From: Nanobdellati archaeon
GTDB lineage: Archaea > B1Sed10-29 > JAGVWA01
Assembly: GCA_018304505.1 (NCBI GenBank)
Contig: JAGVWA010000004.1
Coordinates: 1 to 56,236, forward strand
Reading direction: 5' to 3'
DNA: 56,236 nucleotides
Under the pieces are notes generated by a model that did not search any database, was not told the origin of the DNA, and was given only the letters and a program-made list of their open reading frames with translations. Shown piece after piece: positions 1,485 to 44,264 of this stretch. A program made the translations under genes and the position numbers. Position 1 is the first letter of the stretch. The number at the start of each line of letters is the position of its first letter.

Positions 1485-1691
1485 TTAGATGCATTCTAGG
1501 TCTGCTTCGAGACGAGCTTTGCTAGCTTCTAATGAGGCCTCTTTTCCATCAAGGAAAGCGCGCATTAATGGACTCATCTCTGCCTCCAAGCGTTCTTCTT
1601 CTTGTTTTTGGGCTAGTCGTTCTGCTCGGCGGCGAGCTGCTATCCTATCTGTAATGCTTACGTATTCGTTTGTTTCTGTTGTTTGCCACAT
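1485..1691 (-). CDS. Small Met-Trp-initiated protein (MWQTTETNEYVSITDRIAAR...)
   Basis: ORF track; ATGTGG start preceded by AATGATGATTAT; overlaps the 3' end of the 367-aa ORF in another frame. Confidence 0.55.
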   Translation of the reverse strand: MWQTTETNEYVSITDRIAARRRAERLAQKQEEERLEAEMSPLMRAFLDGKEASLEASKARLEADLECI

Positions 1692-2761
1692 ATAATCATC
1701 ATTCCGTTATTTTTGGCTTTCGCTGTTATTGTTGTACCTAGTATACTTTGCGTAGCGCAGGTACTTAAAACTGTCGGTTGAAGTTCGGTGATTGTCGAAA
1801 AGAAAATCATCTCGTTTCCTGGCTCCGCGTAGCCGATGAAGCGTGCTTGTTTCAGTACTTTGCCTTGTCCTTGTTGTCTTTCTCTTTCGCGTGCGTATTC
1901 TTGTGGTGTTGGTGGCCTCATCGGCGTGGGTCTTGCAGGGGTTTGTGGGGTTGCGATTGTTCCTCTTTGGTGCCGTGCCGCGAGTTGGCGTGCTTGTCGT
2001 GACGCGTTTTCGTGCATTCTTAATGGGGGCGTGGGGACTGGTCGTAGTCCGAGTGTGATTTGTCTGGCGCCGAGTGTGATTTGTCTGGCGTGTTCGCGTG
2101 CGAGTTGTGCTGGTGTTGGTGTGGGTGGTGTGTATGTTGGTGGTTTTTGGGTGGGTGGTGCTTGTCGTTGGGGAACAGCCGATGGCCGTCTTTGGGGGGT
2201 AAGTGCGGGGGTTTGGGTTGGTCGTGCTTGTTGCGTGGCTCGTTTTTGTTGCTTTAGTGCTCGTCGCTCCTCTTTGATTTTTCGTCTGGCGTTAAGTTGT
2301 TTCAGGTTTTCCAGTGCTTCTTCCGCGTTGTTTTTTTGTCTTAGCACTTCGTTGACTTGTCCTAAGTATGTGGCGCGTTGCGTTTCAAGTTTCCTTTTTT
2401 TCAAGCCCGCAATTACTTGTTCTCTTACGAGGTCTGTTGTGGTGCGTTGCCTCAGTATGCTGATTTTTGGCGTGGGTTTGACTCGTTCGATTGCGGTTAT
2501 GAGTTGTGTTGCGGTTGCTGCGCCGTATTTCTTGATGTATTTTTCTAGTCGTGTGGTGGTTCTTTGTAGTGATTTGAGTTGTGTTGTGGTAGTGATGAGT
2601 GTTGGTTTTGTTGGTTGTGGTGTTGCGCCTGCTCGTGTGAGTATTTGGCTTTGTTTGGTTAGTTCTGTTTGTTGGGAGAGGGCGAGTTGGGTTTGGTCAT
2701 GTCTTTGGCGTGTTATTTGTGGAGTTGATTCCCGTTTCTTTATAAAGGTGTCTGCTAGCAA
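1658..2761 (-). CDS. Thr/Pro/Arg/Gln-rich coiled-coil protein, paralog of the left-edge ORF
   Basis: 367-aa ORF; region around 2395-2700 is highly similar at nucleotide level to 1-300. Confidence 0.7.
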   Translation of the reverse strand: MLADTFIKKRESTPQITRQRHDQTQLALSQQTELTKQSQILTRAGATPQPTKPTLITTTTQLKSLQRTTTRLEKYIKKYGAATATQLITAIERVKPTPKISILRQRTTTDLVREQVIAGLKKRKLETQRATYLGQVNEVLRQKNNAEEALENLKQLNARRKIKEERRALKQQKRATQQARPTQTPALTPQRRPSAVPQRQAPPTQKPPTYTPPTPTPAQLAREHARQITLGARQITLGLRPVPTPPLRMHENASRQARQLAARHQRGTIATPQTPARPTPMRPPTPQEYARERERQQGQGKVLKQARFIGYAEPGNEMIFFSTITELQPTVLSTCATQSILGTTITAKAKNNGMMIICGKQQKQTNT

Positions 2762-2951
2762 TAGGAACTTTTGCCTTTAAGTGCCTAATGGCACTAGGAA
2801 CCTTTTTAAATGCGGTTATAGGTTTAAACGCTAGTATACCTCCAAGTAGTATACTTGAAAGTATACTAACTGGGATTTAGCTGGGAAGTGTGTGGTACGT
2901 TAATGGTATTTAAATAGTACGTGTTTCATAATAGGTACCCGAGTTGATTAA

Positions 2952-3569
2952 ATGGAAGCGGTAAAGGACATGCCAAAGTTAGAATCGCCATTCGTGCGCG
3001 CCGAGAATGATAAGGGGGAGTATGTAGTAACCCCACAGGTTGCTGAGGGCATGGACTGGGTTTTTACTGATGATGGTGTCTTGGCTACGGAGAAATTGCA
3101 TGGCACGAACGTTTCGATTGTTATCGAAAATGGAATGATTGCGAGCGTTTGGAACAGGACCGAGAGGCTGCCTTTTTTTAACAAGGGCAAGCAGCACATT
3201 ATCCAGGGTGTGATAGAAGCTTACAGCAGGGGGTATTGTGATTTGCCTGATGGCCAGTGGTTTGGGGAATTAATCGGCGAAAAAGTTAATGGTAATCCGT
3301 ATGGCATTACAGGGCACTTATGGTTGCCTTTTGACAAGTACTGCAAGACGCATTTGGCTTACAAGTCATGGGGTAAGTACCCGAAGGACTTTGGCGCGAT
3401 TAGCGATTGGTTCAAGGGATTGCAGCCCTTGTATTGCTGGAAACTCAGGGGGCAGAGCGAGCAGCCGCAGTTTGTCGAGGGTGTAGTGTTCCATCATCCT
3501 GACGGCAGAATGGCTAAACTCAGGAAGGACATGTTTTCGTGGTATGATGGAAAAAGGCACAACACCTGA
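2952..3569 (+). CDS. RNA ligase-like protein (Rnl2-type nucleotidyltransferase)
   Basis: KxxG motif (ATEKLHGTNVSIVI), FGELIGEKV, EGVVFHHPDGRMAKLRKDMF (motif IV/V-like). Confidence 0.75.
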   Translation: MEAVKDMPKLESPFVRAENDKGEYVVTPQVAEGMDWVFTDDGVLATEKLHGTNVSIVIENGMIASVWNRTERLPFFNKGKQHIIQGVIEAYSRGYCDLPDGQWFGELIGEKVNGNPYGITGHLWLPFDKYCKTHLAYKSWGKYPKDFGAISDWFKGLQPLYCWKLRGQSEQPQFVEGVVFHHPDGRMAKLRKDMFSWYDGKRHNT

Positions 3570-3755
3570 GCTGTTTGTCTAGTGGCATTGTTTGCTAACG
3601 CGAGCCAGTTCTGCGTTAACTGTACTTAACACAGAATCGATTCTAGGTTAAGCACGCATGGCACGGCGCAAAAATCAAGGGGCGCACACCAACGCAATTT
3701 GACTGTGCAGCTTATAAAGTATTAAATAGTCGCGAGGGCATAATAGCAGCTAGTT

Positions 3756-5075
3756 ATGGATAATAGTTATGTTGTTCAGGATACACGCAATGGAGGATAC
3801 CCATATATTAGCCACCAGTTTATTGTGGTTAAAGAGCCGGGTGGAGGTATCATCTATTCAAAGGAGTTTGGAAGATCCATTGCTGAAATAAACGATGCTA
3901 GTTTTGAACTGCTTTCTCACTGCACCGGAAATAACATCCTGCAGGACATAATAACCAAATACAGATGCACAGAAGCAAGCACAGTCATAGATGAATGCAT
4001 CAGCAAAGGAGTCCTATCATTTTCAGGCTTTCCAGCCTTGAAAAGCCCGGTTAACATAATCAATAAGCGCGAGTACAACCCGCACACGGTCCACATAGAA
4101 TTAACAAAAAAATGCAACTTGAGGTGTGTGTATTGTTACAATGCCTCAGGTGAGCCTCTAGAGGATGAATTATCTACCAAAGACTTTTTGCGGGTTTTGG
4201 AGATTCTCAAAAAACAAGGTGTTTTAGCAGTAACATTTACTGGCGGCGAACCATTTACAAAAAAAGACGTCATGATTATCCTGGAAGAGGCTCTAAAACA
4301 CTTCGACGTATCTATAATGACTAATGGGCAATTGCTTGGAAACGACGAGTGGTTTAACTCACTAACAGAACATGAAAAAAGCCTATTAAAAAAAGTCATT
4401 TTTTACCAGATATCGCTTGACAGCCTAAACAAAGAAAAAAATGACGCATATCGGGGCAAAGGAACCTATGACAACGTTGAAAGGGCAGTCAAACGCTTAC
4501 GGAACATGGGTCCTAGAATAACAATATCCGCAACCATAACACAGGAAACCCTTAAGGATTTACCAGAGATGGAACAACAACTAAAGAAATGGGGCGTAAA
4601 ACTAACAATGGGCGCCTTAGAATACCGAGGAAGGGCCAAACATAATAACATGAAAAATCAAATAATTCCCATAGATATTCTAAACGAATTCTCAAGTGAT
4701 GAACCTAACATACACACGGAAAAATACGTGTACTGCAACGCAATTCGTGGAACATTCACGATTAGGTCAAATGGCTTCATTAAACCATGCACCATCTCCT
4801 CAGAGGTATTCAAGGTGTTTAACAAGAACCTATGTGAATCATTGCATATATTTGAATTGGAAGATAAAGAACTTCCCCAGACCGGCTTCTTCAAACTACT
4901 GCGCACACTCTATTACTTTATTCCATCTAAAGAGGAATGCGGGAACTGTGAAAACTATTCATCCTACTGCAAGAATTGCGGTCTGGCTCCACATTACATG
5001 AAGCAGCAAGGATTGTGTAAAAAACTAGGAGGTAACATAAATGAAGTCGCCCAAAATAGATTGGTTAATCATTGA
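3756..5075 (+). CDS. Radical SAM/SPASM peptide-modifying enzyme with N-terminal PqqD-like region
   Basis: CNLRCVYC (CxxxCxxC), TFTGGEPF, C-terminal Cys cluster CGNCENYSSYCKNCGLAPHYMKQQGLC. Confidence 0.85.
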   Translation: MDNSYVVQDTRNGGYPYISHQFIVVKEPGGGIIYSKEFGRSIAEINDASFELLSHCTGNNILQDIITKYRCTEASTVIDECISKGVLSFSGFPALKSPVNIINKREYNPHTVHIELTKKCNLRCVYCYNASGEPLEDELSTKDFLRVLEILKKQGVLAVTFTGGEPFTKKDVMIILEEALKHFDVSIMTNGQLLGNDEWFNSLTEHEKSLLKKVIFYQISLDSLNKEKNDAYRGKGTYDNVERAVKRLRNMGPRITISATITQETLKDLPEMEQQLKKWGVKLTMGALEYRGRAKHNNMKNQIIPIDILNEFSSDEPNIHTEKYVYCNAIRGTFTIRSNGFIKPCTISSEVFKVFNKNLCESLHIFELEDKELPQTGFFKLLRTLYYFIPSKEECGNCENYSSYCKNCGLAPHYMKQQGLCKKLGGNINEVAQNRLVNH

Positions 5076-5187: not shown

Positions 5188-5190
5188 ACA

Positions 5191-6240: not shown

Positions 6241-6332
6241 TCAGGCCTGCTCCAAATCAATTCGTGTAAATTAAGTTTTCAGTAGACGATTTTATGGGTT
6301 GGCCGGCTTTGTCGGGCCCGGCGTTTTATTCT

Positions 6333-9766: not shown

Positions 9767-9777
9767 TTTTCAAAAGA

Positions 9778-15448: not shown

Positions 15449-15721
15449 GTGTGGGATGTTAAAACAGTTAGCCGGGATGAATTTGATAATAATGGGTTTT
15501 CTAGAAGAGACATTTTTCTTGAACTAAGGGATCGGGATAAAGATTTCGCTCCTAGGGATGCTGGTTTTGCCTTAACTGGTGAGCATGCGAAAGCATACAA
15601 GCAAATACAAAGAAGAAGTTTGGAAAGGCATTTGCAACTGGAGGCGGGAATCTTTGAAGCTGGTTGGGGGGCCCCAGAGGTTAAAGAATTCTTGGAAGGC
15701 CAAAGGGCATTTAGATACTAG
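15449..15721 (+). CDS. Small (Met)Trp-initiated protein, GTG start
   Basis: GTGTGGGATGTT preceded by GGTGACTA; TATA TATTTATATAAC at ~15410. Confidence 0.55.
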   Translation: MWDVKTVSRDEFDNNGFSRRDIFLELRDRDKDFAPRDAGFALTGEHAKAYKQIQRRSLERHLQLEAGIFEAGWGAPEVKEFLEGQRAFRY

Positions 15722-17691: not shown

Positions 17692-17988
17692 ATGTGGCAA
17701 GACATTGAACAAATTCAGGGAACACAAGCAGGGCCATCCAACGCGGCAAATGAAATAACGGAACTGCCAATGTGCACAAGGGACATAATCCGGCTCGGCC
17801 TAGAAATTCGGGAAGCGCAACGCAGAGGTGACGTAACAGCAGAGCAGGCGTTTCAAGCGCACGTGCACGCGGGCATTGCACAGAGCGCAAGAAGCGGTGT
17901 GCTTGAGGCCCTGACAGACGCGCAACTCGAAGTCGCGGGGGTGTTCGAAAACGTGGATACATTCCCTATCGATGCGGGTGATGAATAA
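17692..17988 (+). CDS. Small Met-Trp-initiated protein
   Basis: MWQDIEQIQGTQAGPSN; SD GGAGGAAT. Confidence 0.65.
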   Translation: MWQDIEQIQGTQAGPSNAANEITELPMCTRDIIRLGLEIREAQRRGDVTAEQAFQAHVHAGIAQSARSGVLEALTDAQLEVAGVFENVDTFPIDAGDE

Positions 17989-18300
17989 ATGTGGGGTGAA
18001 ATACCTGTCCGCGGGGCTATATTTGATGCGGCACGACGCGCAGCAATGGCGCAATATAATGATTATCTTCTGTTGGCAGACGGCAATGTGCTGCATGAAA
18101 AAGGTGGGGTAAGTGGCACGGTTTACACCCGTGGCCACGCTGCATCTGCGCGCAACTTTCTATGGGAGAAATCGCAAGGCGTTGTTGACAAACTTGCCCC
18201 CTCTGAAGGGGCTCTTGATTACAAGCAGCGGGAGATGTTGGATTCGGCAAGAGAAATGCTCTTGCAGCTGGCGAAAAATGACTTAATGGAGGTGATTTGA
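17989..18300 (+). CDS. Small Met-Trp-initiated protein
   Basis: MWGEIPVRGAIFDAARR; SD GGGTGATGAATAA overlaps upstream stop. Confidence 0.65.
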   Translation: MWGEIPVRGAIFDAARRAAMAQYNDYLLLADGNVLHEKGGVSGTVYTRGHAASARNFLWEKSQGVVDKLAPSEGALDYKQREMLDSAREMLLQLAKNDLMEVI

Positions 18301-18302: not shown

Positions 18303-18545
18303 ATGTGGGGAAGCTTAGACGCATCTTTAAAGCTTGGGGAAATCAAACCAAATAAAGTCAAGGACGCGCTTGATGATGGGATGGCAAGAGCAAGAGCGGC
18401 TATTAGGGGAGAGCTTAATGTACAAGGCAGAAATCAGACAGCGGCGTTTCACATAATGGCCGGCGAAGCCATTACAGAATTGGAACGAACCGCGCAGACG
18501 CTGTTGGACACAATTCAAGCCGCGAAACGCGAGCTCGAGAAATAG
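18303..18545 (+). CDS. Small Met-Trp-initiated protein
   Basis: MWGSLDASLKLGEIKPNKV; SD GGAGGTGATT. Confidence 0.65.
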   Translation: MWGSLDASLKLGEIKPNKVKDALDDGMARARAAIRGELNVQGRNQTAAFHIMAGEAITELERTAQTLLDTIQAAKRELEK

Positions 18546-20295: not shown

Positions 20296-21123
20296 AATCG
20301 AGTAAGTTAGGCACACCACCATTTTGCGGAAGGATTAAATAGATCATCGTTCATAAACATAACGGTGATTATTTGTCTTTTGAAGAACTGCATCGTCTTG
20401 TTGGCTCTAAACCACTACAAATGGTTATAGCGCAGCATCCTGAGGTGATAGCATTATATAGGCTATCTTTAGGAAAAAGCCAGCGAGATTTTGCGCGTTT
20501 TCTGAATATGTCTCAAGCAAAAGTTAGTGAATTAGAAAGAGGCATTGGGAGAGTAAACAAGGAAAAGGCAGAAGAGTGGGCTAAGTTATTAAGCTCAGTC
20601 CGTCTTCTGTCAGTTCTTGAACTTGAAAATAATAGATCCCAGATACATAAACGTGGAAGGTTCTTCGGAGAATATGCTAAAAAGATGGCATTAAAGAGTG
20701 CGGAAAATGCTGCAATAATAAGTGCAACAAAAAAGAAGCCAACGCCACAAGAGCAAAGGCTTAAGTTGCTATTTGAAAATGCAGGCATAGAACACCAGCC
20801 ACAGGGGGTGTTTCCTGCACAAAATCAAAAATTTGTTGTAGATTTTGTTTTTCCGACCATCGATAATCCAAAAGTGATAGTAGAAGCCAAAGAGCTAAAC
20901 ACTTCATATAGAAAGAGGCTTTCTGTTATTGATTTAGCATATCGGGCAATTAAAATGAAACAAGCCAATCCAAAAATCAAGATGATAGCAATCATAGATA
21001 CAAATGGTTTGTTGCGGAGTTCCCGTAAAAGACTATCTCTAGATTATGATTATGTTCTAATAAATCCTTCCGATAATTTGGTGGTACAAACATTAAGAGA
21101 AGTCCTAGCTTCTTGATGTGGAT
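20296..21123 (+). mobile_element. 16S rRNA archaeal BHB-type intron
   Basis: GCGTG-TCAT-TAA-ATCGAG ... CTTGAT-GTGG-ATT-CACGC forms canonical BHB; ligated loop TCATTAT fits archaeal TCATCAT-like loop. Confidence 0.85.
20373..21116 (+). CDS. Intron-encoded HTH plus PD-(D/E)XK-like nuclease
   Basis: N-terminal HTH (LSLGKSQRDFARFLNMSQAKVSELERGIGRVNKEKAEEWAKLL); C-terminal VVDFVFPTIDNPKVIVEAKELN (D...ExK). Confidence 0.75.
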   Translation: MSFEELHRLVGSKPLQMVIAQHPEVIALYRLSLGKSQRDFARFLNMSQAKVSELERGIGRVNKEKAEEWAKLLSSVRLLSVLELENNRSQIHKRGRFFGEYAKKMALKSAENAAIISATKKKPTPQEQRLKLLFENAGIEHQPQGVFPAQNQKFVVDFVFPTIDNPKVIVEAKELNTSYRKRLSVIDLAYRAIKMKQANPKIKMIAIIDTNGLLRSSRKRLSLDYDYVLINPSDNLVVQTLREVLAS

Positions 21124-21248: not shown

Positions 21249-22002
21249 AAATTTGTTGTGACCTTTACCAGTAATGGTAAAGACAAACCTGGCTATATGC
21301 TGGAAACTCCGAGTATCTCAAACTACCAGAGTCTTATCAACTCCTGCCATCAAATCGATAGCAGAAATGGTGAAAATGTTTGGGTGCGGACAATCAGCAG
21401 GGAAGTCGTGATTGACCCCTCAGAGACTACACGCCGGGCTCCTATCAGAGTTGAATTAAATGAGCAAAGCATACCTCAAAGGAGCACTCCATGACGCAAC
21501 TGAGCGAAAATACACTTTCAGACTTTGTCAAAAACAACAAGCATATGTTGAATTCATTGCTAACCTCGTTAGAAAACTTGGATTCAATGCATGGACATAC
21601 AAAGAAGGCAAAACAAGAAACGTGTACATTGTAGAGTTCAGTAAAAAGATCCTTGATAGTTTCGAAATACAAACGAGACAAGACAAAATCGATTATATTC
21701 GAGGATACTTTGATGCGGAAGGGAGTGTACCGAGAAAGAAATTGGGATTTCAATATATATACATCGCGCAAAAAAGCAATCAAGAATTGTTGGAACTGGT
21801 TTCTTATCTAAATGAGTTAGGCATTGCTTGTGGAAAAATCCACGTGCCATCAACCAAAAAACCAGATTACTGGCGCTTTTACGCGTCAGCTAAATCAAGG
21901 AAAAAGTTCATAGAAACAATTGGTTCATGGCATCCCGAAAAAAGTCAACTGCTGGGGAAGATGATATAGTCCGCGCGCTATGGCGACATAGTGTACTAAG
22001 CG
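21249..22002 (+). mobile_element. 16S rRNA group I intron
   Basis: 5' exon GUCAU pairs with internal guide GUGAC (U-G at splice site); conserved core AAACCTGGCTAT...CTCAGAGACTACACGC...GATATAGTCCG; terminal G. Confidence 0.8.
21460..21969 (+). CDS. LAGLIDADG homing endonuclease in 16S group I intron
   Basis: YLKGALHDATE and YIRGYFDAEGSV motifs. Confidence 0.85.
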   Translation: MSKAYLKGALHDATERKYTFRLCQKQQAYVEFIANLVRKLGFNAWTYKEGKTRNVYIVEFSKKILDSFEIQTRQDKIDYIRGYFDAEGSVPRKKLGFQYIYIAQKSNQELLELVSYLNELGIACGKIHVPSTKKPDYWRFYASAKSRKKFIETIGSWHPEKSQLLGKMI

Positions 22003-22697: not shown

Positions 22698-25600
22698 TCT
22701 AAATAAGCTATTTGGTGGATGACTCGGCTTGAAGTCTGACGACGGGCGTAGCAAGTTGCGATAAGCTTGGGGGAGATGCAGGCAATCCTTGATCCCAAGA
22801 TTCCCCAATCATTCCGAGAGGAAGAATCACGCGGTGAATTGAAACATCTCAGTAACCGCAGGAAAAGAAAGCAAGAGCGATTCCGTTAGTAGTGGCGAAC
22901 CAAAGCGGAACAGGGCAAACCGAATCCACCGTGGTGACGTGGTGGAAATGTGGTGTTCGGACCGTCTTCAACTTTCAAAGAGATCTCAAAGTCCCCTGGA
23001 ACGGGGCGGCGTAGAAGGTGATACCCCTGTAGAGAGGTCTGCGAAAGTCGTTATGGCGAGTTCCAGAGTAGCGTTACGTGAAAGTAGCGTGAACCCGGGG
23101 GTACCAACCCCTAACTCTAAATATGGCTCAAGACCGATAGAGGACTAGTACCGTGAGGGAATGTTGAAAAGTATCCTGAGAAGGAGCTGAAAAGATCTGA
23201 ACCCAAATAGCGATATGCGTTACTGCCTGGAAGCTAAAACCCCCGAACATTAGGAGGGGGTGTTATGCAGGGTGGTAACTTCAGTCATGAAGCACTGGGC
23301 AGGGAGTTTATTTATGTGGCGAGGCTAACCTGAAAAAGGGTAACCGAAGGGAAACCGAAAACCCGCAGCATGCGAGGGGTGGTGTCTTAAACTGGCACTA
23401 TAGTCACATGGGTAAGACCTGAAGCCTGGCGATCTACACGTGAGCAGGATGAAACCGGCGCTCAAGCCGGTGGAGGTCCGCAACTAGTGCACAATTCAAC
23501 TGGCTTAGGTGACTTGCGTGTAGGGGTGAAATTCCAATCGAGCCAGGCGATAGCAGGTTCCTATCGATACACGCCGTAGTGTGGCCTCGGTCGAGACAGA
23601 TGGCATGGTAGAGCACTAATTTGGAAGTTATGGAGAGAAATCTTCGGCTTCCTTGTTAAACTCCAAACGTGTCATCGTCGTAGAAGCCGGGAGTCGGGGC
23701 GTCGGGGTAAGCTTGACGTCCGGAAGGGGAACAACCCAGCCCATGGTTAAGGTCCCTAATAGGCAGCTAAGTGTAAATACAAACGATGTCACAACCCTAA
23801 AACAGCTGGGAGGTAGGCTCAGAAGCAGCCATCCTTTAAAGAGTGCGTCATAGCTCACCAGTCTAGGGGGGTGGCGCGGAAAATTGACGGGGCTAAAGTT
23901 GCCAACCGATACCATGGATACCAACAGTAGTTGGTAGCGTAGATAGGCGATGTGCGAGAGCAGAAGCTAGGCCGTAAGGTCTTGTGGATCTCGTTCATTT
24001 GAAAATCCTGCTGAAAGTAACAGCCACAGAACAGTGAGAACCTGTTCCGCCGAAAGGGCCAGGGTTTCTCAGCCATGCTTGTCAGCTGAGAGTAAGTCGA
24101 TCCTAAGTGCATTCCTAACCGACGTGCACAAAAGGGAATCAGGTTAATATTCCTGAACCTAACGGATACGCGCGGCGACGCATGTCCATCGCGTGACGCT
24201 TTGGGGTAGGTGAAGCACAACCGTCGTTGTGTCTAAAAGGAATAAGGTTGTGGAGTATCGTAATGATGAGAAACAACCTAAATCCTTGAATGGCCCACAT
24301 TTGTGGGTTTTGCCAAGCCCTGGAGTCCATGAAAAGCGTGATGGAAAGGATTCCGTTAGATCGTACCAAGAACTGACACAGGTGCCCCTAGCTGAAAAAG
24401 CTTAGGCGTGGCGGGCCAGCCGTCTTAAGGGAACTCGGCAAATTAGTCTTGTACCTTCGGAAGAAGAGATGCCTACCCTCCTTCGGGAATGGTAGGTCGC
24501 AGTGACAAGGGGGGAGCGACTGTTTACCAAAAACACAAGTCCTCGCTAGCCCGTGAGGGTTTGTACGGGGGCTGACATCTGCTCACTGCCAGTACGTGAA
24601 TACCTGGTACAACGGGAGTAAGCGCTGGTGAAGAGCGGGCCTAACTCTGAGGCTCAACACAAAAAGGAGTTAGGAAACAGCAACCACAACAAGCAACAAC
24701 AACCACAAAAAAAATTTGGTTAAGCAGTTAGTATACATGTATTACGCAGCCTGAAAAGGGCCTCGTAAAACCTGGCTATGTGCGGGAAACTCCGAAGTAT
24801 CCGACACTACCCGAGTCTTATCAACTCCTGCTATCAAATCGATAGCAGAAAAGGGTAAAAACGTGATCGGTGCGGACAATCCGCAGGGAAGTCGTGATTG
24901 ACCCCTCAGAGACTACACGCCAAGGGCTCTCGATTTATCGAGAGGCATGATATAGTCCGATCCTAATAGCGATATTAGGCACACCAATAATACAAAGGAA
25001 AACACAGATGCTTAAGGTAGCGTAATACCTCGTCGCTTGATTGGCGACTTGCATGAATGGTGTAACGTCTCCGCCACTGTCCCTAAGACGGACCCGGTGA
25101 AATTGTTTGCTGGTGAAGATACCAGTAATTCCTAGTGGGGCGCAAAGACCCCGTGGAGCTTTACCGCAGCCTGTTGTTATGGCTTGTTTTTGCATACATA
25201 GAGTAGTTGGGAGACTTCGAAGCAGAGTCTTCGGGTTTTGTGGAGTCGACGATGTAACACCAACTATACAAAAACAAGTTGTTTACTTCGAGAGAGGGAC
25301 AGCAGTAGGTGGGCGGTTTGACTGGGGCGGTACGCCCTTGAAACGATATCAAGGGTGCCCAATGGTCACCTCATCCGTGTTAGAAACACGGAGTAGAGAG
25401 TCAAGGACAAATGGTGGCCTGACAGTGTTCCGTACAGAGAGGAACGCTGACACGAAAGTGCGGCCTAGTGATCACCAATACTCTTTTGGTGGGAGTTTGG
25501 TCTGTCAGAAAAGTTACCCCGGGCGTAACGGGATCGTCGCGGGCGAGAGTCCATATCGACCCCGCGGTTTGTCACCTCGCTTTTGGCACGTGTCATCCTG

Positions 25601-26258: not shown

Positions 26259-26759
26259 TTATCCTATCTTCCGTAGTTTTTCAAAGTAGGTTTCTGTTTC
26301 TTTTTTGAACGCCGTATCTAAGAACTGTTTTGGGCTCAGTAGCTCGATTTGTTTCTTAAATTTATTGAAGTCGCGCACGTTCCTTGTCACAATTAAGTCG
26401 CATGATTTTTTGGCGCACGTCAACTGGTAGGCATCTTCATAATGTGTACTCTTGTTTTCCAGGCAGCTCATGAATTCATTGATGCTAAGGCTTATGGGGT
26501 TCCAACTGCCACTGAAAATGTGCCTCAGGGCATTTCGAGTTTTGTCATCTGAGTCACTTATTCCTGCACGTTCGAGTTTAAAATTCAGATAATTGCCCAC
26601 GGAAAAAGGCGTCGCGTCGCTTATGTAAGCATTGAATTTTTTGTCATTTACAAGTAAAACAATTGCAGCTGAGTGCTTGTAGTGGTCAAAACTCTCTGCA
26701 AAGTACACAAGCCGGATGTAATCCATCAGGACGTTTTTGTCAATAAAAGCGCTCTTCAA
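26259..26759 (-). CDS. PIN-domain (VapC-like) toxin
   Basis: FIDKNVLMDYI, HYEDAYQLTCAKKSCDLIVTRNVRDF. Confidence 0.7.
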   Translation of the reverse strand: MKSAFIDKNVLMDYIRLVYFAESFDHYKHSAAIVLLVNDKKFNAYISDATPFSVGNYLNFKLERAGISDSDDKTRNALRHIFSGSWNPISLSINEFMSCLENKSTHYEDAYQLTCAKKSCDLIVTRNVRDFNKFKKQIELLSPKQFLDTAFKKETETYFEKLRKIG

Positions 26760-26983
26760 ATCAAACCCTTTTTTTCAAGGTATTGAATTTGTTTTTTAGC
26801 AGCACTGTCCTCTTTTTCGACAAACCAGGCTTGAAACCCGCGTCGCTCGTTTTCTTGTTCAGTCATTAATTCGCGTATGGCTTCTCTTATCACTTCACCT
26901 TTGCTTTTGTACAAGCCGGTTCCAACCTGCGAATCTATCCAATGTTCCATGTGCTCTGTTACGTCTGCACTTACCGTGACCAT
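26756..26983 (-). CDS. CopG/ParD-like antitoxin
   Basis: MVTVSADVTEHMEHWIDSQVGTGLYKSKGEVIREAIRELM; 4-nt overlap with PIN gene. Confidence 0.7.
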   Translation of the reverse strand: MVTVSADVTEHMEHWIDSQVGTGLYKSKGEVIREAIRELMTEQENERRGFQAWFVEKEDSAAKKQIQYLEKKGLI

Positions 26984-27218
26984 GAATCCACCTTCTGACT
27001 TTTATATTGTATTCTATAGCCGGCTAAATATTTAAGGGTTTCTATTTCTCTGGCATCACATTTATGGTTTCCTAAGTTATTTTAGGTTTTCCTAAATATT
27101 CGGGTTTCGGTGTCGCAGCGCAACTTCATCTATCAACCACTTTTTTTCTTTTTCTAACTATGCGTTCAGCGAGAGCTTTATATAGCAGGTTGGGCAATAA
27201 TTGTGCAGGTGATTAATA

Positions 27219-27599
27219 ATGTGGCGCACGCGAGTTTATGAAATAAACGAGATTCCAGACGACACAAAGCGGTGGATGGCGGAAAGGCAGCGAATCAATG
27301 ATGGGCGTGGCAATGTTTATGCGGATACCACGCGTATAATTAGGGAGTGGGTGCCATGTGGTGAGATTGAGGTGTACACTGACGATAAAGAAGGAAATGA
27401 CTTTACGATTGTGCGCCAGAACACACTGGAGAGGGCAATTGATTGCCGCAGCGATGCTGAACGGTTGAACTTCCTAGGGCTAAAAGACGAGGCAGCAAAG
27501 CGCTTAAGAGATGCGGGGGCGTGCGATAGAATTCTTGAATTATCTGGTGGAACCCCTGAAAGGCGCGAGTCCCACCTCGACCCGAGAATTTTTATGTGA
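27219..27599 (+). CDS. Small Met-Trp-initiated protein
   Basis: MWRTRVYEINEIPDDT...EIEVYTDDKEGNDFTIVRQNTLERA...ACDRILELSGGTPERR; paralog of 30604-31005. Confidence 0.75.
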   Translation: MWRTRVYEINEIPDDTKRWMAERQRINDGRGNVYADTTRIIREWVPCGEIEVYTDDKEGNDFTIVRQNTLERAIDCRSDAERLNFLGLKDEAAKRLRDAGACDRILELSGGTPERRESHLDPRIFM

Positions 27600-27639
27600 G
27601 CGTAGTGTACTGTGCAGTTGGTGTAGTGTAATCCAGTTT

Positions 27640-28062
27640 TTATAAGTGCATGCTTTGCGCTTTGAAAAACAGTTCTTCTGCAAAGTCCATATAACTTTCT
27701 AGTTCTTTTGTCTCGAATGTCTTGCCGTACATGTATCCTGCGGAGTGTAGTTCGTTTTCGATTTCTAGGTATTTGTCAAAGAGTTTCTTGTCAATTGTTT
27801 TCTTGTTAAGCAGGTGGTCCCTGATGAGGAACTGCAAGGCAAGGCGGCCTTTATATGGCCGTTCCTTTCCCGGGTATCTGATTTCTTTTACACCCTGCAT
27901 ATAGAGCATTGATTCAAAAGTAGTTTCTGTAGCTCTGAAGATTTCTTCTGCAGCTGGATAGAGCCTGTCTTCGTTAAGGTTTGCTCTAGCGGATTCCAGG
28001 TATTGCTCTGCTTTTCGTAAGCCCCAGTTAGCCAAATCGTTTTGGTTTTTTGCCATGTAACA
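27640..28062 (-). CDS. HEPN-domain protein
   Basis: AKNQNDLANWGLRKAEQYLESARANLNEDRLYPAAEEIFRATE; overlaps nucleotidyltransferase gene. Confidence 0.7.
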   Translation of the reverse strand, partial: CYMAKNQNDLANWGLRKAEQYLESARANLNEDRLYPAAEEIFRATETTFESMLYMQGVKEIRYPGKERPYKGRLALQFLIRDHLLNKKTIDKKLFDKYLEIENELHSAGYMYGKTFETKELESYMDFAEELFFKAQSMHL

Positions 28063-28618
28063 CAACCCCATGGGCATGGGCTTTTATTATGAAGGGGTCC
28101 TTTTTTAGTCTTGTTAGGTAGTCTTTTTCCGAGAGCACGATTGGTATTATTGGTAGCCCGCGCGCATGTTTTTGATTGATCTCGGAAATGATTTCCTTTT
28201 TGTTTTGCGCGATTTCGTTATTTGGGAGAACAATGAGTAAATCGATGTCGCTTTGCACTGTAGCTTGCTTTTCAGCAACACTGCCGATTAAGATAATTGA
28301 GGTTATATTGTGTTTTCTCACCAGTGACGCTGCTGTCCTCTTTGCCTCGGTTTCGTAGGTGTTGGTGAGGCCTTTGAATAAGTGTTTGAGGGTCTTTACT
28401 AGAAAGTGTTCTTTGTTTATGGAGTACTGTTTTGTTTTTCCGATTCTGTGCATCTTGATAAGGCCAAGCTGGGTTAGCTCTTCGCCTTGTCTGCTTATCT
28501 CTGGCAGGGATGCGTGCGCTTCTTCTGCTAGTGCCGAAGTTGAATAAGTTTTTCCATTAACAAGGACAGAGAGCAGTCTTATCTTGACTTTGCTTCCTAG
28601 CACGTTATCTATGTACAT
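28028..28618 (-). CDS. HTH-nucleotidyltransferase (MNT-like)
   Basis: N-terminal ArsR-like HTH; IILIGSVAEKQATVQSDIDLLIVL (GSx10DxD). Confidence 0.8.
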   Translation of the reverse strand: MYIDNVLGSKVKIRLLSVLVNGKTYSTSALAEEAHASLPEISRQGEELTQLGLIKMHRIGKTKQYSINKEHFLVKTLKHLFKGLTNTYETEAKRTAASLVRKHNITSIILIGSVAEKQATVQSDIDLLIVLPNNEIAQNKKEIISEINQKHARGLPIIPIVLSEKDYLTRLKKDPFIIKAHAHGVVLHGKKPKRFG

Positions 28619-28676
28619 TTTATCACATTTAGGATTTCCTAAGTTATTTTAGGTTTTCCTAAATATAAGGGTTTCG

Positions 28677-29012
28677 GTGTCGCAGCGCGACATGGCTGTA
28701 AAAGTAGGTCTCTTGCAAACTGAGGTAATCCATTACCCAAATTTGAAGACAATATTAGAGGTAGAGGAAGTGCTGAAAAACGCTGATGGGCTAATGAATA
28801 AAGCGCAAATAAAAAAGGCATTGCCTAAGGACATCATGCACCAAACCCTCAACGTAATCTTGGGTTATCTGGAACAAAGTGGCAAAATTCTGGTGCCAGA
28901 GAAGGGGGTTCTATGGACATACAACCCGAGCAAGAAACTAAGAATGGGCCCGATGTGCCGGAAGTCCTCGGTTCGAATCCGAGCAGCCCCATACTGTATA
29001 GCCAGTCGTTGA
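28677..29012 (+). CDS. Small wHTH-like protein, C-terminus running into tRNA-like sequence
   Basis: KTILEVEEVLKNADGLMNKAQIKKALPKDIMHQTLNVILGYLEQSGKILVPEKGVLWTYNPSKKL. Confidence 0.5.
   Translation: MSQRDMAVKVGLLQTEVIHYPNLKTILEVEEVLKNADGLMNKAQIKKALPKDIMHQTLNVILGYLEQSGKILVPEKGVLWTYNPSKKLRMGPMCRKSSVRIRAAPYCIASR
28967..28991 (+). other. tRNA 3'-end fragment (T-arm plus acceptor 3' strand)
   Basis: CTCGG-TTCGAAT-CCGAG-CAGCCCC-A with no matching 5' acceptor GGGGCTG upstream. Confidence 0.6.
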
Positions 29013-29058: not shown

Positions 29059-29379
29059 ATGTGGGACAGGAAATCCTGGGAAACTGGGGAAAAGCTGCCA
29101 AAGGAAGTTGAAGACGCAATGCTAATGAGGCCAATGATTGTTTACAAAGGCGTGCGTTATTACCCTGGGAAGGGGGACATGGTTTTTGATGACGACAATG
29201 CGGTGCACAAGGTGTTTGACGGTTTCTTAGGTTATGACCTGACGAAACTCAGAAAGGAAATCGCGAGGCAGGAAAACGACTGGCGCCAGGGCATGGAAAT
29301 TTTCCCAGGCATGGCGCAGGAATTCAAGGAATTGGCAGACGCAGCAGCAGTGATTGCCAGCCCAGCAGGCAAGATTTAG
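29059..29379 (+). CDS. Small Met-Trp-initiated protein
   Basis: MWDRKSWETGEKLPKEVEDAM; TATA CTTTTTATATATAC. Confidence 0.65.
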   Translation: MWDRKSWETGEKLPKEVEDAMLMRPMIVYKGVRYYPGKGDMVFDDDNAVHKVFDGFLGYDLTKLRKEIARQENDWRQGMEIFPGMAQEFKELADAAAVIASPAGKI

Positions 29380-29403
29380 GTTTTCCTAAATATGAATCTT
29401 ATG

Positions 29404-30033: not shown

Positions 30034-30447
30034 ATGTGGGATTGTGAAGTTTGGGCCAAGGGACTATATGTGGAGGATCCTAAGGAGGTGCCAGAAAGTG
30101 TATGGGAAGCAATGAGGCAAAGGAACGGGGTAAAGATAGAAGATTACGATAACCTCCGGCGTGAATACACTGCCAGTACATATTACAATGGCGATACAGA
30201 TCTGATCAAGCATTACGATAGCTGGATATATAGGGGTTTTGGGGCAGCACCAACTTTCTTTAGGTGTGTTTCTAGGTATACGGATGGGCCCAATGGCGAT
30301 CACTTAACAAAGGAGAGACGAAAACTGGCAGACCTCGCACGTAAAAAGAATAACGAAGCAAATTCAATTCTTGAATTAGCCGACTGCCCGACAGAGTTCG
30401 TAGAGGTTTTCACACCAGAACGCCTAGCGAGGGTTCTGGGTAGATGA
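30034..30447 (+). CDS. Small Met-Trp-initiated protein
   Basis: MWDCEVWAKGLYVEDPKEVPESVWEAM; SD GAGGGATGACTA. Confidence 0.65.
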   Translation: MWDCEVWAKGLYVEDPKEVPESVWEAMRQRNGVKIEDYDNLRREYTASTYYNGDTDLIKHYDSWIYRGFGAAPTFFRCVSRYTDGPNGDHLTKERRKLADLARKKNNEANSILELADCPTEFVEVFTPERLARVLGR

Positions 30448-30603
30448 TCTGCTTAATTACACTGGTGCATATTGGGACTGGCAACTGCAGCGCAACTTCA
30501 TTTATCAACCACTTTTTTTCTTTTTCCAACTAACGTTTAGTGAAAGCCTTAAATAAATCATGATGCAAATAGAATACTACAAACTTATTAGGGGCGATGA
30601 TTA

Positions 30604-31005
30604 ATGTGGAGCATTAAAGAGTATGATTATAACGAAATTCCAAGACAGCTTTGGGAAGAAATGGAAACAGCAGAATCAGTACTCATATCAGAGGGTGTGG
30701 CGGCACGGTGTACGAGCGTTTTTCCAAACAAGGAGCGCATAATGCTAGCATGGCGGCCAATAGGCCCTGTTGAAATACACACTGATGATGAAAACGGGAA
30801 CCACTTCACCCTTCTGAGACAAGATGTTCTAGAAAGAGCCGAGGAATTCAGATTAAAAAGAAGAGAACAAAGGTCAGCAGGGCTATGGCATGAAGCAGAC
30901 ATATCAGAAGAAAACGCGAAAGCATGCGACAGAAGTTTAGAACTATCTGGGGGGACGCCGGAAAGGCGAGTGCAGCTCGATGATGGCCAGGGCGTTCTCT
31001 ACTAG
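30604..31005 (+). CDS. Small Met-Trp-initiated protein
   Basis: MWSIKEYDYNEIPRQLWEEM...VEIHTDDENGNHFTLLRQDVLERA...ACDRSLELSGGTPERR. Confidence 0.75.
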   Translation: MWSIKEYDYNEIPRQLWEEMETAESVLISEGVAARCTSVFPNKERIMLAWRPIGPVEIHTDDENGNHFTLLRQDVLERAEEFRLKRREQRSAGLWHEADISEENAKACDRSLELSGGTPERRVQLDDGQGVLY

Positions 31006-32944: not shown

Positions 32945-33193
32945 ATGTGGCAAACACGAGCGCAGCTGTATAAATCAATCAGGGATGTAGTTACTGAGCC
33001 TGACGGCGACAAGCGGGTAGATGCCCTCTTACGCATGGATCAGACGCTGCGCAGCGAAGCCGATGAATTTAATGAACTCGCAAATTCCCGCGTTTTGGAT
33101 GATGCGGAGTGTGACGACTTGATACGGCTTGTCAGGCAGCAGGAAGTGATTGACGGGTTGCTTAGCATGGAAATTCGCACTACGGGGAAATGA
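32945..33193 (+). CDS. Small Met-Trp-initiated protein
   Basis: MWQTRAQLYKSIRDVVTEPDGDKRV; TATA ACATTTATATT. Confidence 0.65.
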   Translation: MWQTRAQLYKSIRDVVTEPDGDKRVDALLRMDQTLRSEADEFNELANSRVLDDAECDDLIRLVRQQEVIDGLLSMEIRTTGK

Positions 33194-33195: not shown

Positions 33196-33498
33196 ATGTG
33201 GGCTACCATAATAAACTATGAGAAATACTGCCACACCTATGGTGGCGAATCAGAGGGGGGGCCACGGCCGCCTGATTTTCTCGCTATTGACGGTACAACA
33301 GAGGGGGACATACTGGTCTTTGAACCGCATGAGAGCACTGTTGTGCGTCAATTCTTAGATGGCGATGATGGCAGGGTAAGAGAGAATTTCTATAGGCACA
33401 TGACAAAGATAAGGGACACACCGCGGGGGTCAAGAACAGCATACGAGATGGGAAGTTTTCTTAGGAGAGAAGCGCGTAAATGCGGGGCACTGATGTAA
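33196..33498 (+). CDS. Small Met-Trp-initiated protein
   Basis: MWATIINYEKYCHTYGGESEGG. Confidence 0.6.
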   Translation: MWATIINYEKYCHTYGGESEGGPRPPDFLAIDGTTEGDILVFEPHESTVVRQFLDGDDGRVRENFYRHMTKIRDTPRGSRTAYEMGSFLRREARKCGALM

Positions 33499-33499: not shown

Positions 33500-33751
33500 A
33501 TGTGGGCTGACGAAGTATCCATGAAAGAGTATTTTAGTGGGCGGAGCGCTGGAAAATACGTGCGCTTTTTTCCAGTATTTGACGGCTCGAAAAACAGGGG
33601 GGTGGCGCTGACGCCCGCTGATGATGAGCGTTACCAGCAGTTGTCGGGCGAGCAAAAAAAGCAGTTGGGCTTGTCGCTTAACAGAAACGAAGTGGATTTT
33701 ATGCCTCCTGCTAAGTGGGTTAATGATTTCCTTAAAATGCACGGCAAGTGA
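33500..33751 (+). CDS. Small Met-Trp-initiated protein
   Basis: MWADEVSMKEYFSGRSAGKYVRFFP. Confidence 0.6.
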   Translation: MWADEVSMKEYFSGRSAGKYVRFFPVFDGSKNRGVALTPADDERYQQLSGEQKKQLGLSLNRNEVDFMPPAKWVNDFLKMHGK

Positions 33752-35118: not shown

Positions 35119-35328
35119 TCACTCTTCTTCATCAGAAGGGGGAGTGAAGCCCATTTCTGCAATGCGGCCCTCCGCTTCACGTGCAGCCGCCAATGCATTA
35201 TACACCAATTCCGCGCTTTCTTGATTTGGGGTGTGTCCCATCAGGTATGACGTAACAGTTCGTTCTAATATTGGTGGCCAACCCTGGGCCAGCTGGCCCT
35301 TGCCAGTAGGTTTACTGTTTTCCCACAT
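35119..35328 (-). CDS. Small Met-Trp-initiated protein
   Basis: MWENSKPTGKGQLAQGWPPILE; SD GGGAGATGATTA; TATA ACTTTATAAAC. Confidence 0.6.
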   Translation of the reverse strand: MWENSKPTGKGQLAQGWPPILERTVTSYLMGHTPNQESAELVYNALAAAREAEGRIAEMGFTPPSDEEE

Positions 35329-37815: not shown

Positions 37816-38094
37816 AGAGAAGTGGAACGAGGCTAACGCTCCTTTCTGCAAAGAACGTAGTTCTTTGAGACCTCAACGAAACCCCGGTTTCGTTGCAGGC
37901 GCGGAGTGAGGAAGTTCTCCCCACCCGTCCAACTTGTTTGGATGATTAAAAACACCGGAGACGGTGAGGGCAGGATCAGAAACGCTACCCGGCATTTCGG
38001 TGTTGGGATGAAACGTGCTTGTCCTAGGTGCAAGGCAGTACGCCGCTTAGTAGAATGCCTCATGTACAGAAGGGAGACTATGAGCCACTTCTCA
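37816..38094 (+). ncRNA. rnpB: RNase P RNA
   Basis: P1 GAGAAGTGG/CCACTTCTC; GAGGAAGTTCTCCCC (CR-I), GGGATGAAACG...AGGTGCAAGGCAGTACGCCGCTTAGTAGAATGCC, TACAGAAGGGAGACTATGAGCC (CR-V). Confidence 0.8.
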
Positions 38095-38367
38095 CCCTTT
38101 ATCTTGATCTATCAATCCGGTAATGCCTTTCCATACGTGCCCTACAACGCCGTCATTGGTGTATGGCCTTATCGCATCGCAGACCCCTGTTCGTAGGTCT
38201 CGCAGTTCTTCTGGCGTAAAATCAGTTTTTTCAAGCGCGGCTATTCCCGGTATAGCTAAGTCGGGACGTAAGCGTTTTAGTTCCTCGAAAACAATCATTC
38301 GCTTGTTTGCCCCGTAGCGGTTCATGCCAGGCAGGTGTGAAATGTCGTCTAACAGTGGTTGCCACAT
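38092..38367 (-). CDS. Small Met-Trp-initiated protein
   Basis: MWQPLLDDISHLPGMNRYGANK; TATA GATTTATAAAT. Confidence 0.6.
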   Translation of the reverse strand: MWQPLLDDISHLPGMNRYGANKRMIVFEELKRLRPDLAIPGIAALEKTDFTPEELRDLRTGVCDAIRPYTNDGVVGHVWKGITGLIDQDKG

Positions 38368-39190: not shown

Positions 39191-39208
39191 TTCAGAAAAT
39201 TAACTTCT

Positions 39209-40549: not shown

Positions 40550-40913
40550 ATTAGCGTGGTGCTCAATGGTTGAAATTAAAGACGAGGTCGTGCTGAAGGG
40601 GTCGGGAATAACGCCACACCGCGTAGAAGGTGTAGCTAGGGTTATACGGTCTAGCAAAGATTTGGAACAAGTCACTTCTGAAGACATAGTAGTATTGGTA
40701 AATTCAACGCCATTGATGGTTCCATATTTAATAAAAGCCAAGGGCTTCATTGGAGAAGCTGGGGGGCTACTATGCCATTTAGCAATAATCAGCAGAGAAT
40801 TTGATAAGCCATGTATTATTGGAATAGAAAATGTTACTAAAATAATTGCTTCTGGTGATGCTGTGAAAATAAGTGGTCTTAGTGGAAGAGTAACGGTGAA
40901 AAAAAATGGCTAA
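40515..40913 (+). CDS. Stand-alone PEP-utilizer phosphohistidine swivel domain
   Basis: EAGGLLCHLAIISREFDKPCIIGIENVT; overlaps rSAM 3' end. Confidence 0.8.
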   Translation: MMKVMDKWQVIELAWCSMVEIKDEVVLKGSGITPHRVEGVARVIRSSKDLEQVTSEDIVVLVNSTPLMVPYLIKAKGFIGEAGGLLCHLAIISREFDKPCIIGIENVTKIIASGDAVKISGLSGRVTVKKNG

Positions 40914-41691: not shown

Positions 41692-42308
41692 ATATTCTAA
41701 TTGATGTTGTCGGTACACTATTTGGAAAAGACAAACTAAATAGCTTATATGGTGAATTATACAAAAGCGGCTTAACTCGTAGGCTTCAAAGACGACTGAG
41801 GACAAATTGGGTTACTGGGCAACAAGTTTCTGATGAAAAAGTACTCGACCAAGCACTAGAAACACGAAAGGGGCGTAGATTTTTCAGAGAGTGGTTATCA
41901 AGAAATGTAGAAGATTTTGCGGAGCTACAAAAAGCGATTACTGATTTTAGAAGGAAAACAAAAAGCAGAGTTTTGATTAATACATCATACTCTCCAAGAA
42001 TATCAACATTTATAAGCAAACAACTAAGGGCAGATGGCGTAACTCCCCAAAAGAGAATGCAAGACGGGTATATTGTTGATGATCTGTTTAAGAGGCATTA
42101 TCGGCTAAATAAAATCGCACATGGGCACGCATATGCAATACCATCTACCGGAAATCCAAGATCACGGCAAGCAAGATTGGAAGAATTTGGAGTCAAAATA
42201 CAACCAAAAAACGTGGCAGATCTTGTGAGAATCCTTCATGAAAAAAATGTATTAAATAGGATACAAGAGCAAAAAAAGAAGAAAACAGAACAAAGGCGCC
42301 TTTGGTAG
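41688..42308 (+). CDS. Putative HAD-like protein in rSAM operon
   Basis: ILIDVVGTLFGK resembles a degenerate HAD motif I; VLINTSYSP motif II-like; overlaps previous stop. Confidence 0.4.
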   Translation: MNILIDVVGTLFGKDKLNSLYGELYKSGLTRRLQRRLRTNWVTGQQVSDEKVLDQALETRKGRRFFREWLSRNVEDFAELQKAITDFRRKTKSRVLINTSYSPRISTFISKQLRADGVTPQKRMQDGYIVDDLFKRHYRLNKIAHGHAYAIPSTGNPRSRQARLEEFGVKIQPKNVADLVRILHEKNVLNRIQEQKKKKTEQRRLW

Positions 42309-42365
42309 GTTTAGGAGAAAATAATTAAGGGCTGCATTTAATAAGAACATTTCCCTTTTTCATGC

Positions 42366-42950
42366 ATGAAAAATTCCTGGAACCGATTCGTTTTTCAATT
42401 GTGGGTGCCGTTCTACGACGCGTCTTTTGCACTGTACAGGAAAAACAAGGAATGGAGACTACGAGCCTTTGAGGAACTTGGCCTGAAAGAGAACACAAAA
42501 CTCCTTGATGTGGGCTGCGGCACGGGATTAAATGTTCCAATCGTGCCGAAGACAGTCGATTATACAGGCCTCGACATCTCGGAAGCAATGTTGAACAAGG
42601 CCTCGCAAAAGTTCCCTGACAAGAAATTCGTTATCGGTGATGCATGTGCGCTTCCATTTAAGGATGGGGAATTTGATTTCTTAATTAACACGTACAGCGT
42701 GAACGTCCTGCCTGATGTTGCGCAAGCGCTGCGGGAAATGAAACGCGTTTCCAAAAAGACGGTGCTGTACGACCACTTTAGGTCAGGCAATCCTATAGTC
42801 GCGTTTCTGCAGTTGCTCTCAAAGCCATTCGGTTTTTTGTTAGGCATTGACACTTTTGTAAGTATTGAGAAAGAGTTGAAAAAAGCAGGCATCGAGGCGC
42901 GCATTGAAAAGCTCGATTTCCTTGGCGCGTACAAGCTCGCAGTGTTCTGA
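42366..42950 (+). CDS. Class I SAM methyltransferase
   Basis: KLLDVGCGTGLNVPIVPK, YTGLDISEAML. Confidence 0.8.
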   Translation: MKNSWNRFVFQLWVPFYDASFALYRKNKEWRLRAFEELGLKENTKLLDVGCGTGLNVPIVPKTVDYTGLDISEAMLNKASQKFPDKKFVIGDACALPFKDGEFDFLINTYSVNVLPDVAQALREMKRVSKKTVLYDHFRSGNPIVAFLQLLSKPFGFLLGIDTFVSIEKELKKAGIEARIEKLDFLGAYKLAVF

Positions 42951-42954
42951 CTCA

Positions 42955-43233
42955 TCACTTGAAGTTGAGGCGTGGATTCGAGTGAGTCTTCAGCCTCATC
43001 CTCGTCATCGCAAATTTTGCGTCATCATCAGTGAATCTTGAAAGGAATTTTTTCCCGAGAATCCCATTGGTTTCGCGGATGTAGATCTCAGGCCCAACGC
43101 CGAAGCCGTCAAAAGTCACTTTGCCGGCACTCGATTCTCTTACCTGTGTCCACAGTGGGTGCTTGTACTGCAGGAGCTTGTCGAATGTGTTGTAGTCAGC
43201 CTGCCCCTCAGTAGAATGAGTTACTTCCCACAT
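42955..43233 (-). CDS. Small Met-Trp-initiated protein
   Basis: MWEVTHSTEGQADYNTFDKLLQ; TATA GTTTTTATATCC. Confidence 0.6.
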   Translation of the reverse strand: MWEVTHSTEGQADYNTFDKLLQYKHPLWTQVRESSAGKVTFDGFGVGPEIYIRETNGILGKKFLSRFTDDDAKFAMTRMRLKTHSNPRLNFK

Positions 43234-43319
43234 GTAAATCAGTGAAGTATTTCTGCCGGTTGGGATATAAAAACATTCACAGTAATCTTTATATATGCCA
43301 TTGTGCAAATATGTTAAAT

Positions 43320-43724
43320 ATGTGGGAAGTTAAATCTGGAACAATCGAATGGGACATGGACAAGCGTGATGGTGTTGTAACCAGCGGCGACACAGACTCC
43401 ATAATCCAAGAAATGGATGCCCTCGGGAATGCACACCCGCTCGAGTTTTTTGTGATTGACGAGAGAATAGAAGTCGGCATCTACCCCGGGGATCAGGTAT
43501 CGCCAACTGCGCGCGACAAAGCCACACGAGCCCTGTTTTTCAGTTATGACGAAATACTCGACGACTGCGGTGGGGATGTCAAGGGAAGAGGCCATTACAA
43601 AAAGTGGGATGGCCAAGACCTCAGGGACGGCGTGGCTGAGGTAAGGCGATTTCTTGATGAGTCTGGCGAAGATGCGAGCCAAATAATCGCTGAACTGGAC
43701 AGCACGTTTCCTGACTTGGCATAA
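43320..43724 (+). CDS. Small Met-Trp-initiated protein
   Basis: MWEVKSGTIEWDMDKRDG; TATA CTTTATATAT; paralog of next gene. Confidence 0.65.
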   Translation: MWEVKSGTIEWDMDKRDGVVTSGDTDSIIQEMDALGNAHPLEFFVIDERIEVGIYPGDQVSPTARDKATRALFFSYDEILDDCGGDVKGRGHYKKWDGQDLRDGVAEVRRFLDESGEDASQIIAELDSTFPDLA

Positions 43725-43802
43725 ATCGACATTAGCTTTTTATAAATCAAACTGCACATACGTCCCTACGTGTGTTTAAACACGTATTTAATGTGTGATT
43801 GC

Positions 43803-44264
43803 ATGTGGGACACGAAAGAAGGCACAGTAGAATTTAGGAATGGATTTAGAACGCCAACCGACACAGCCGCCATTGCCGAGGAAATTAACGCAGATTGGCG
43901 CAGATTAAGTCTGAATCCGAGGTCTAAAATGCAGACATCCCAATACCCGGGGTTGACGTATTCTGTCTATCTTGGAGACAGAAATGATTATGAAGATGGA
44001 ACACAAGACCCAAATGCTAGGATTTTATTTGAGGCAAGGCATGTGTATGCTGGCCCAGGGCATATCGTTAATGTTCTGAAGAGGTATGACGGGGAAGACT
44101 TCGAAAAAGGGATAAACCAAATTTCGATGACCCTGCGGGGCGCTGCTGACAGGATTAGAGAAGGGGCAAATGACAGTGATCGGGCGATAATAGGCGGCCT
44201 AAAAGTCGCAAGTGCAATGGAACACAGCTCGGCAAATTTGGATAAGTTGCTACGTCCAAATTAA
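43803..44264 (+). CDS. Small Met-Trp-initiated protein
   Basis: MWDTKEGTVEFRNGFRTPTDTAAI; YDGEDFEKGINQISMTLRGAADRI matches WDGQDLRDGVAEVRRFLDE of previous. Confidence 0.65.
   Translation: MWDTKEGTVEFRNGFRTPTDTAAIAEEINADWRRLSLNPRSKMQTSQYPGLTYSVYLGDRNDYEDGTQDPNARILFEARHVYAGPGHIVNVLKRYDGEDFEKGINQISMTLRGAADRIREGANDSDRAIIGGLKVASAMEHSSANLDKLLRPN

Follow-up and report, generated by a model that had tools for sequence, protein, structure and literature searches.

A genome-wide set of small acidic proteins sharing an N-terminal Met-Trp in a putative Diapherotrites-type archaeon

Large, lineage-specific and fast-diverging protein repertoires united by a short N-terminal motif are represented by the RXLR effectors of oomycetes and the PEXEL effectors of Plasmodium, which combine a secretory signal peptide with an internal motif. 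A repertoire with the same general traits, consisting of small proteins that all begin with Met-Trp (MW), was analysed here from 17 open reading frames (ORFs) in contig JAGVWA010000004.1 of assembly GCA_018304505.1, the entire 56,236 nucleotides of which (contig C15 of the genome) are henceforth called the window. Unlike the RXLR and PEXEL repertoires, the MW set has no signal peptide, and its invariant part consists of residues 1 and 2. Lineage-specific expansions of small orphans, as seen in archaeal and bacterial genomes, resemble it in being both tandem and dispersed and in having no database matches; to our knowledge, none of them is marked by an unvarying dipeptide at the N-terminus or by a composition this distinct. 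The N-terminus itself can also be recognised in NatC substrates and N-degrons, in which Met is kept before Trp, as would be expected of the MW set (Met followed by Trp should stay in place, and eukaryotic NatC accepts Met-Trp as a substrate; PMC4692089). Those are, however, scattered proteins of the general proteome, whereas the MW set is a class private to one genome, in which ClpS, the bacterial N-degron recogniser, was not found. The original prediction knew of no described system with this hallmark, and neither a convincing family match nor literature linking DPANN archaea with an N-terminal Met-Trp was found. Most of the mutually dissimilar MW proteins have little in common beyond the Met-Trp tip, which suggests a selected docking or sorting tag of a kind not described before.

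The genome (G000; 917,116 bases in 21 contigs, 93% complete) is the one metagenome-assembled genome representing its family; its relatives were sampled in part, and homology tests were performed on paralogues. Genes were called with an unsupervised home-made caller using a dicodon model, TATA boxes and Shine-Dalgarno sequences, and the resulting list of small genes is approximate. The set proved larger than the 17 members from which an excess over chance had been claimed: 63-64 of the ~925 called genes start with MW, against 7.6 expected at a Trp frequency of 0.82%, and these starts are concentrated in small genes (60 among 362). Independently of the starts chosen by the caller, TGG was the commonest second codon, following the start in 104 of 2156 ATG ORFs of at least 60 amino acids outside strong genes, and a TATA box or Shine-Dalgarno sequence was located upstream of 68 of these 104 ORFs (65%), more than for any other codon listed. 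Curation by eye resulted in 93 MW proteins, to which GTG-TGG ORFs add five to give a total of ~98; GTG is the start codon in nine of them, with TGG kept behind it, and no excess of TTG-TGG was found in the genome. The genome-wide excess and the second-codon count rule out a chance origin. Mis-called starts are likewise ruled out, because TATA boxes and Shine-Dalgarno sequences precede ATG-TGG and because eight homologous pairs, detected by a six-frame search blind to the first five residues, agree on the start.

All eight blind pairs keep Trp at position 2, also where the remainder has diverged to 28-43% identity; for one partner the caller had picked a wrong start, and the gene reads GTG-TGG. 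In the seven pairs tested, the proportion of synonymous differences (pS, 0.61-0.84) exceeded that of non-synonymous differences (pN, 0.41-0.51) throughout, which rules out non-coding ORFs and indicates that these are protein-coding genes subject to purifying selection, duplicated long ago and with synonymous sites close to saturation. Paralogy beyond the MW had been claimed for two pairs in the window. With the first three residues removed, the similarity between the proteins at 27219..27599 and 30604..31005 was strong (E = 1e-23; 43% amino acid identity, pS 0.81, pN 0.41), whereas that between the proteins at 43320..43724 and 43803..44264 was weak (E = 0.03). Positive selection in the former pair, suspected from 87% identical DNA upstream, was not supported, as synonymous sites are saturated; the upstream identity belongs to a separate repeat. 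Across the genome, about ten pairs are significantly similar beyond residue 3, and most of the 93 proteins remain near the level of reversed or shuffled controls.

At the DNA level, strict conservation extends from the start codon through TGG only; upstream of it lies an ordinary promoter or Shine-Dalgarno signal, and no conserved DNA block was found upstream of the MW starts. Candidate shared regulatory motifs (TTGCA and TTTAGG-TTTT-CCTAAA) were rejected, showing no useful enrichment, with the palindrome occurring only in the 27-30 kb cluster of the window. Downstream of Trp2, weak preferences were observed at residues 3 to 8 (N/Q/D, T/I/V, Q/T/N/K, E/T, A/S and T/Y, respectively), which exceed an expectation tilted for A-rich gene starts. 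The third residue, described as always small or polar, is so in the window; genome-wide, MWM, MWL, MWV, MWI, MWF, MWY and MWK are also present. A TGxD motif considered as uniting many members reached only the edge of the shuffled controls.

The bodies of the MW proteins are coherent in composition. Compared with other small proteins of the genome, their median Lys/(Lys+Arg) ratio is 0.36 (vs 0.67), their Asp+Glu content 17.7% (vs 12.8%) and their median isoelectric point 5.0 (vs 7.9), and a hydropathy scan detected a transmembrane-like segment in 1 of 93 (vs 85 of 337), the other 92 having no N-terminal secretory, signal-like or transmembrane-like segment. A classifier trained on the composition of residues 3 onward separated MW from other small proteins with a cross-validated area under the curve of 0.97; composition-matched ORFs without MW were few, and several of these resemble ribosomal, lipo- or zinc-ribbon proteins by eye. 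The MW proteins thus are one discrete compositional class, soluble, Lys-poor and rich in Arg, Asp and Glu, and are probably cytosolic. Their composition is not an imported GC bias, since Arg codons are chosen as in the rest of the genome (CGN share 0.49 vs 0.50) and the GC content at third codon positions is not raised. Scanning 92 MW proteins yielded no Pfam match and single marginal matches in PHROGs, NCBIfam and PADLOC (E 0.003-0.009), none of them convincing. No viral homologues were found for three representative queries (the proteins at 17692 and 43320 and a three-row alignment) in viral contigs, nor for 43320 in phages. For the protein at 32945, AlphaFold2 predicted helices at residues 5-16, 21-47 and 53-81 (predicted local distance difference test score, pLDDT, 86), none of which includes residues 1-4; a Foldseek search of this model against the PDB returned generic helical hairpins and nothing below E = 0.001. 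The model of the 30604 protein (pLDDT 40) was discarded as unusable, and other members appear strand-rich by eye.

The repertoire was restricted to this genome among those sampled. No small MW protein occurred among 262 small genes (samples of G005, G004, G003 and G002 plus G001, ~874 kb), and one occurred among 65 small genes of G009 and G010, sampled around pattern hits; a count in related genomes, proposed with the original prediction, hence gave no MW excess in sampled genomes of the same order or class (1 among ~327 small genes). The pattern GGTGA, 1-8 bases, ATGTGG was present at 18 non-identical sites in G000 (vs 2 control sites); among the ~205 archaeal genomes surveyed, including 60 relatives and 143 others, none of similar size shows this. 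Comparable counts elsewhere came from larger genomes with higher controls or from G120, most of whose 16 sites repeat a single sequence. G120 has GGTGATTAAATTATGTGG in about ten identical copies (e.g. at C7:10798 and C16:8572 of that genome), some of them at contig ends, which probably mark the start of a mobile element. BLAST searches with the 93 MW proteins retrieved no homologues from the called genes of the relatives; with the same relatives as a benchmark, 130 of 337 other small genes and 296 of 508 larger genes found homologues. An alignment of the 27219, 30604 and 30034 proteins (A3) matched only itself in 61 genomes.

Forty MW genes are single and the others form 18 runs (ten triplets, seven pairs and one quartet), located among housekeeping genes and mostly on contigs C15, C3, C19, C8, C14 and C11; MW genes are absent from contigs C4, C6, C7, C18 and C21. 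In relatives, the genes on either side of an MW run often lie next to each other: the flanks of C1:37537-37815 (together with one further small gene) are separated by 8-9 bp in both G003 and G010, those of the four-gene run C8:22923-24175 lie 6 bp apart in G004, and those of C11:4708-4953 lie 7 bp apart in G004. From this gene order, the MW genes are best read as having probably been gained at dispersed chromosomal sites. No common repeat flanking the MW genes, as boundaries of mobile cassettes, was found. Dispersed intergenic repeats of 30-160 bp do occur on many contigs of the genome (e.g. upstream of C3:71579 and C3:125661) and are not tied to MW genes.

We tentatively favour the reading that, in this old and lineage-private repertoire, Met-Trp and the weak preference up to residue 8 form an N-terminal docking or sorting tag under selection. 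The ~98 small acidic proteins would have been gained at dispersed sites, with tandem duplication adding part of their number. Their bodies would then have diverged into many unrelated-looking sequences while selection on the protein kept Met1-Trp2. With Met1 retained before Trp2, Met-Trp and the polar or beta-branched stretch up to about residue 8 would constitute a short linear motif docking every member onto one shared partner, and through this common docking the repertoire could act as interchangeable adaptors or effectors. A tag with one common partner would best explain why the tip is constant in proteins that differ in body, size and probably fold. Somewhat more tentative still is the wider possibility of an archaeal N-terminal code, in which the free Met-Trp tip is the address for one receptor and about one tenth of the genes are private adaptors or effectors. 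If true, a two-residue N-terminal address would define ~10% of the genes in a minimal archaeal genome, an organisation not described before, and a short MW peptide would be a direct handle for tracing the receptor and the function of a sizeable part of archaeal dark matter. An orphan gene class would also be recognisable from one N-terminal feature and composition once homology has been lost.

Several points weigh against a docking tag. No partner protein for the Met-Trp tip was identified, and no orthologues were found in the sampled genomes, so that the conservation of Trp2 rests on paralogues. Two invariant residues are few for a specific signal, and residues 3-8 add no more than weak preferences. 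Simple common descent would also be compatible with the tandem runs and the pairs of paralogues. As Trp has a single codon, selection on protein and on RNA are inseparable by synonymous change. The original preference for an N-terminal signal over common descent stood in part: the diverse genome-wide repertoire, the strict MW, the retention of Trp2 at 28-43% identity and the scarcity of composition-matched candidates lacking it speak for a signal, but given the tandem runs, pairs and composition, a signal is not separated from a remnant of descent.

The main rival, which we consider unlikely but serious, is a single over-diverged family, descended from a single small MW ancestor through ~100 duplications, in which Trp2 is kept for its packing within the fold or at a self-assembly interface and not as a tag. 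At least part of the set arose by duplication, as indicated by the tandem runs, the paralogue pairs and the even composition; uniform size and the TGxD-type motif recurring in some members, at the edge of the shuffled controls, are further points for common descent. Most of the 93 proteins, however, show no similarity above the controls, and a fold core normally leaves more than one invariant residue. The predicted all-helical member at 32945 has its MW tip outside the helices, while other members look strand-rich by eye.

The remaining explanations rank below this rival. Met-Trp, possibly acetylated, might be a Met-hydrophobic N-degron setting a short half-life for the whole class, as could be imagined for a retained Met in a NatC-type context, with an unusual Lys-poor composition and with a proteasome (two subunits) and two M24 peptidases (methionine aminopeptidase family) encoded in the genome. 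We regard this as improbable: the search that found no ClpS in G000 found it in 5 of 14 control genomes, and such a degron would be expected to tolerate Leu, Phe and Tyr, of which no near-misses occurred among the composition-matched ORFs. It is quite improbable that the mRNAs are instead co-regulated by an RNA-binding or initiation factor that recognises AUGUGG at the reading frame's 5' end, with Trp as a by-product. The single Trp codon and a strict block of exactly ATGTGG would fit, but the first base is free (GTG-TGG in nine), TTG-TGG is not in excess, near-miss second codons are absent, and residues 3-8 show preferences beyond the base tilt of the start region; moreover, leaderless-type and Shine-Dalgarno-type starts both carry ATGTGG, which is therefore probably not at a fixed distance from the 5' end. 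Equally hard to credit is a set of effectors that reach a partner cell by means of Met-Trp as an export or sorting signal. This reading is brought to mind by the DPANN lineage and by private, diverse, soluble small proteins of distinct composition reminiscent of effector repertoires, but 92 of 93 proteins have no transmembrane-like or signal-like segment, no host or secretion system was tied to them, and their genes lie among housekeeping genes.

In the window, starts, strands and lengths (68-153 amino acids) of the 17 MW ORFs were all as originally described, with GTG-TGG at 15449 and ATG-TGG in the others. Their upstream sequences look like normal archaeal initiation, most having a TATA box (~25-30 nt upstream of 29059, 38367, 43233 and 43320) or a Shine-Dalgarno sequence (GGTGAT/GGAGG-type at 17692, 17989, 18303 and 27219). 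The first protein (1485..1691, minus strand, 68 amino acids) is homologous to the MW protein at C17:5761-5943, and the GTG-started one (15449..15721, plus strand, 90 amino acids) follows GGTGAC, with TATA-like and Shine-Dalgarno-like sequence. A tandem run of three on the plus strand precedes the 16S rRNA gene: 17692..17988 (98 amino acids, GGAGG Shine-Dalgarno), 17989..18300 (103 amino acids, GGTGATG upstream) and 18303..18545 (80 amino acids, Shine-Dalgarno GGAGGTGATT).

Next on the plus strand are the paralogues at 27219..27599 (126 amino acids) and 30604..31005 (133 amino acids), the protein at 29059..29379 (106 amino acids), with a TATA box (TTTTTATATATA) ~30 nt upstream, and that at 30034..30447 (137 amino acids), a weak relative of 30604 (E = 5e-3) included in A3. 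Toxin-antitoxin-like pairs adjoin MW genes in this region (26259-28618), namely a PIN domain with a ParD-like protein (26259-26983) and a PaREP1-like protein with a nucleotidyltransferase (27640-28618). Intergenic direct repeats of 87-96% identity (27055-27124, 28622-28691, 27115-27160, 30487-30532 and 29375-29393) carry the palindrome TTTAGGTTTTCCTAAA, confined in G000 to the 27-30 kb cluster, and are better conserved than the adjoining MW genes.

A second plus-strand run of three comprises 32945..33193 (82 amino acids, the predicted three-helix bundle), 33196..33498 (100 amino acids) and 33500..33751 (83 amino acids), the last resembling C8:37428-37718 (E = 2e-4). On the minus strand, 35119..35328 (69 amino acids) is preceded by GGGAGATGATT, 38092..38367 (91 amino acids; TATA box TTTATAAAT) ends abutting the RNase P RNA gene of the opposite strand, and 42955..43233 (92 amino acids) has the TATA box TTTTTATAT. 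The plus-strand genes 43320..43724 (134 amino acids; TATA box TTTATATA) and 43803..44264 (153 amino acids; TATA-like and Shine-Dalgarno-like sequence upstream) complete the set.

Besides RNase P RNA, the window encodes archaeal 16S and 23S rRNA and one tRNA-Ala. The closest matches of its arginyl-tRNA synthetase (50, 46 and 44%) were all to genomes of the same order, and matches to the named records 'Candidatus Diapherotrites archaeon B1Sed10_29' and 'archaeon Dive96_bin3.463' were at 45-49%, which points to a Diapherotrites/Iainarchaeota-type DPANN archaeon with Diapherotrites as the probable nearest named relatives. The rRNA operon layout is unusual, with a helix-turn-helix protein (20373-21116) and a LAGLIDADG-type protein (21460-21969) encoded in the ~1.9 kb interval between 16S rRNA and tRNA-Ala, and a group I intron (24720-24979; Rfam RF00028, 66 bits) is located within the 23S rRNA gene.
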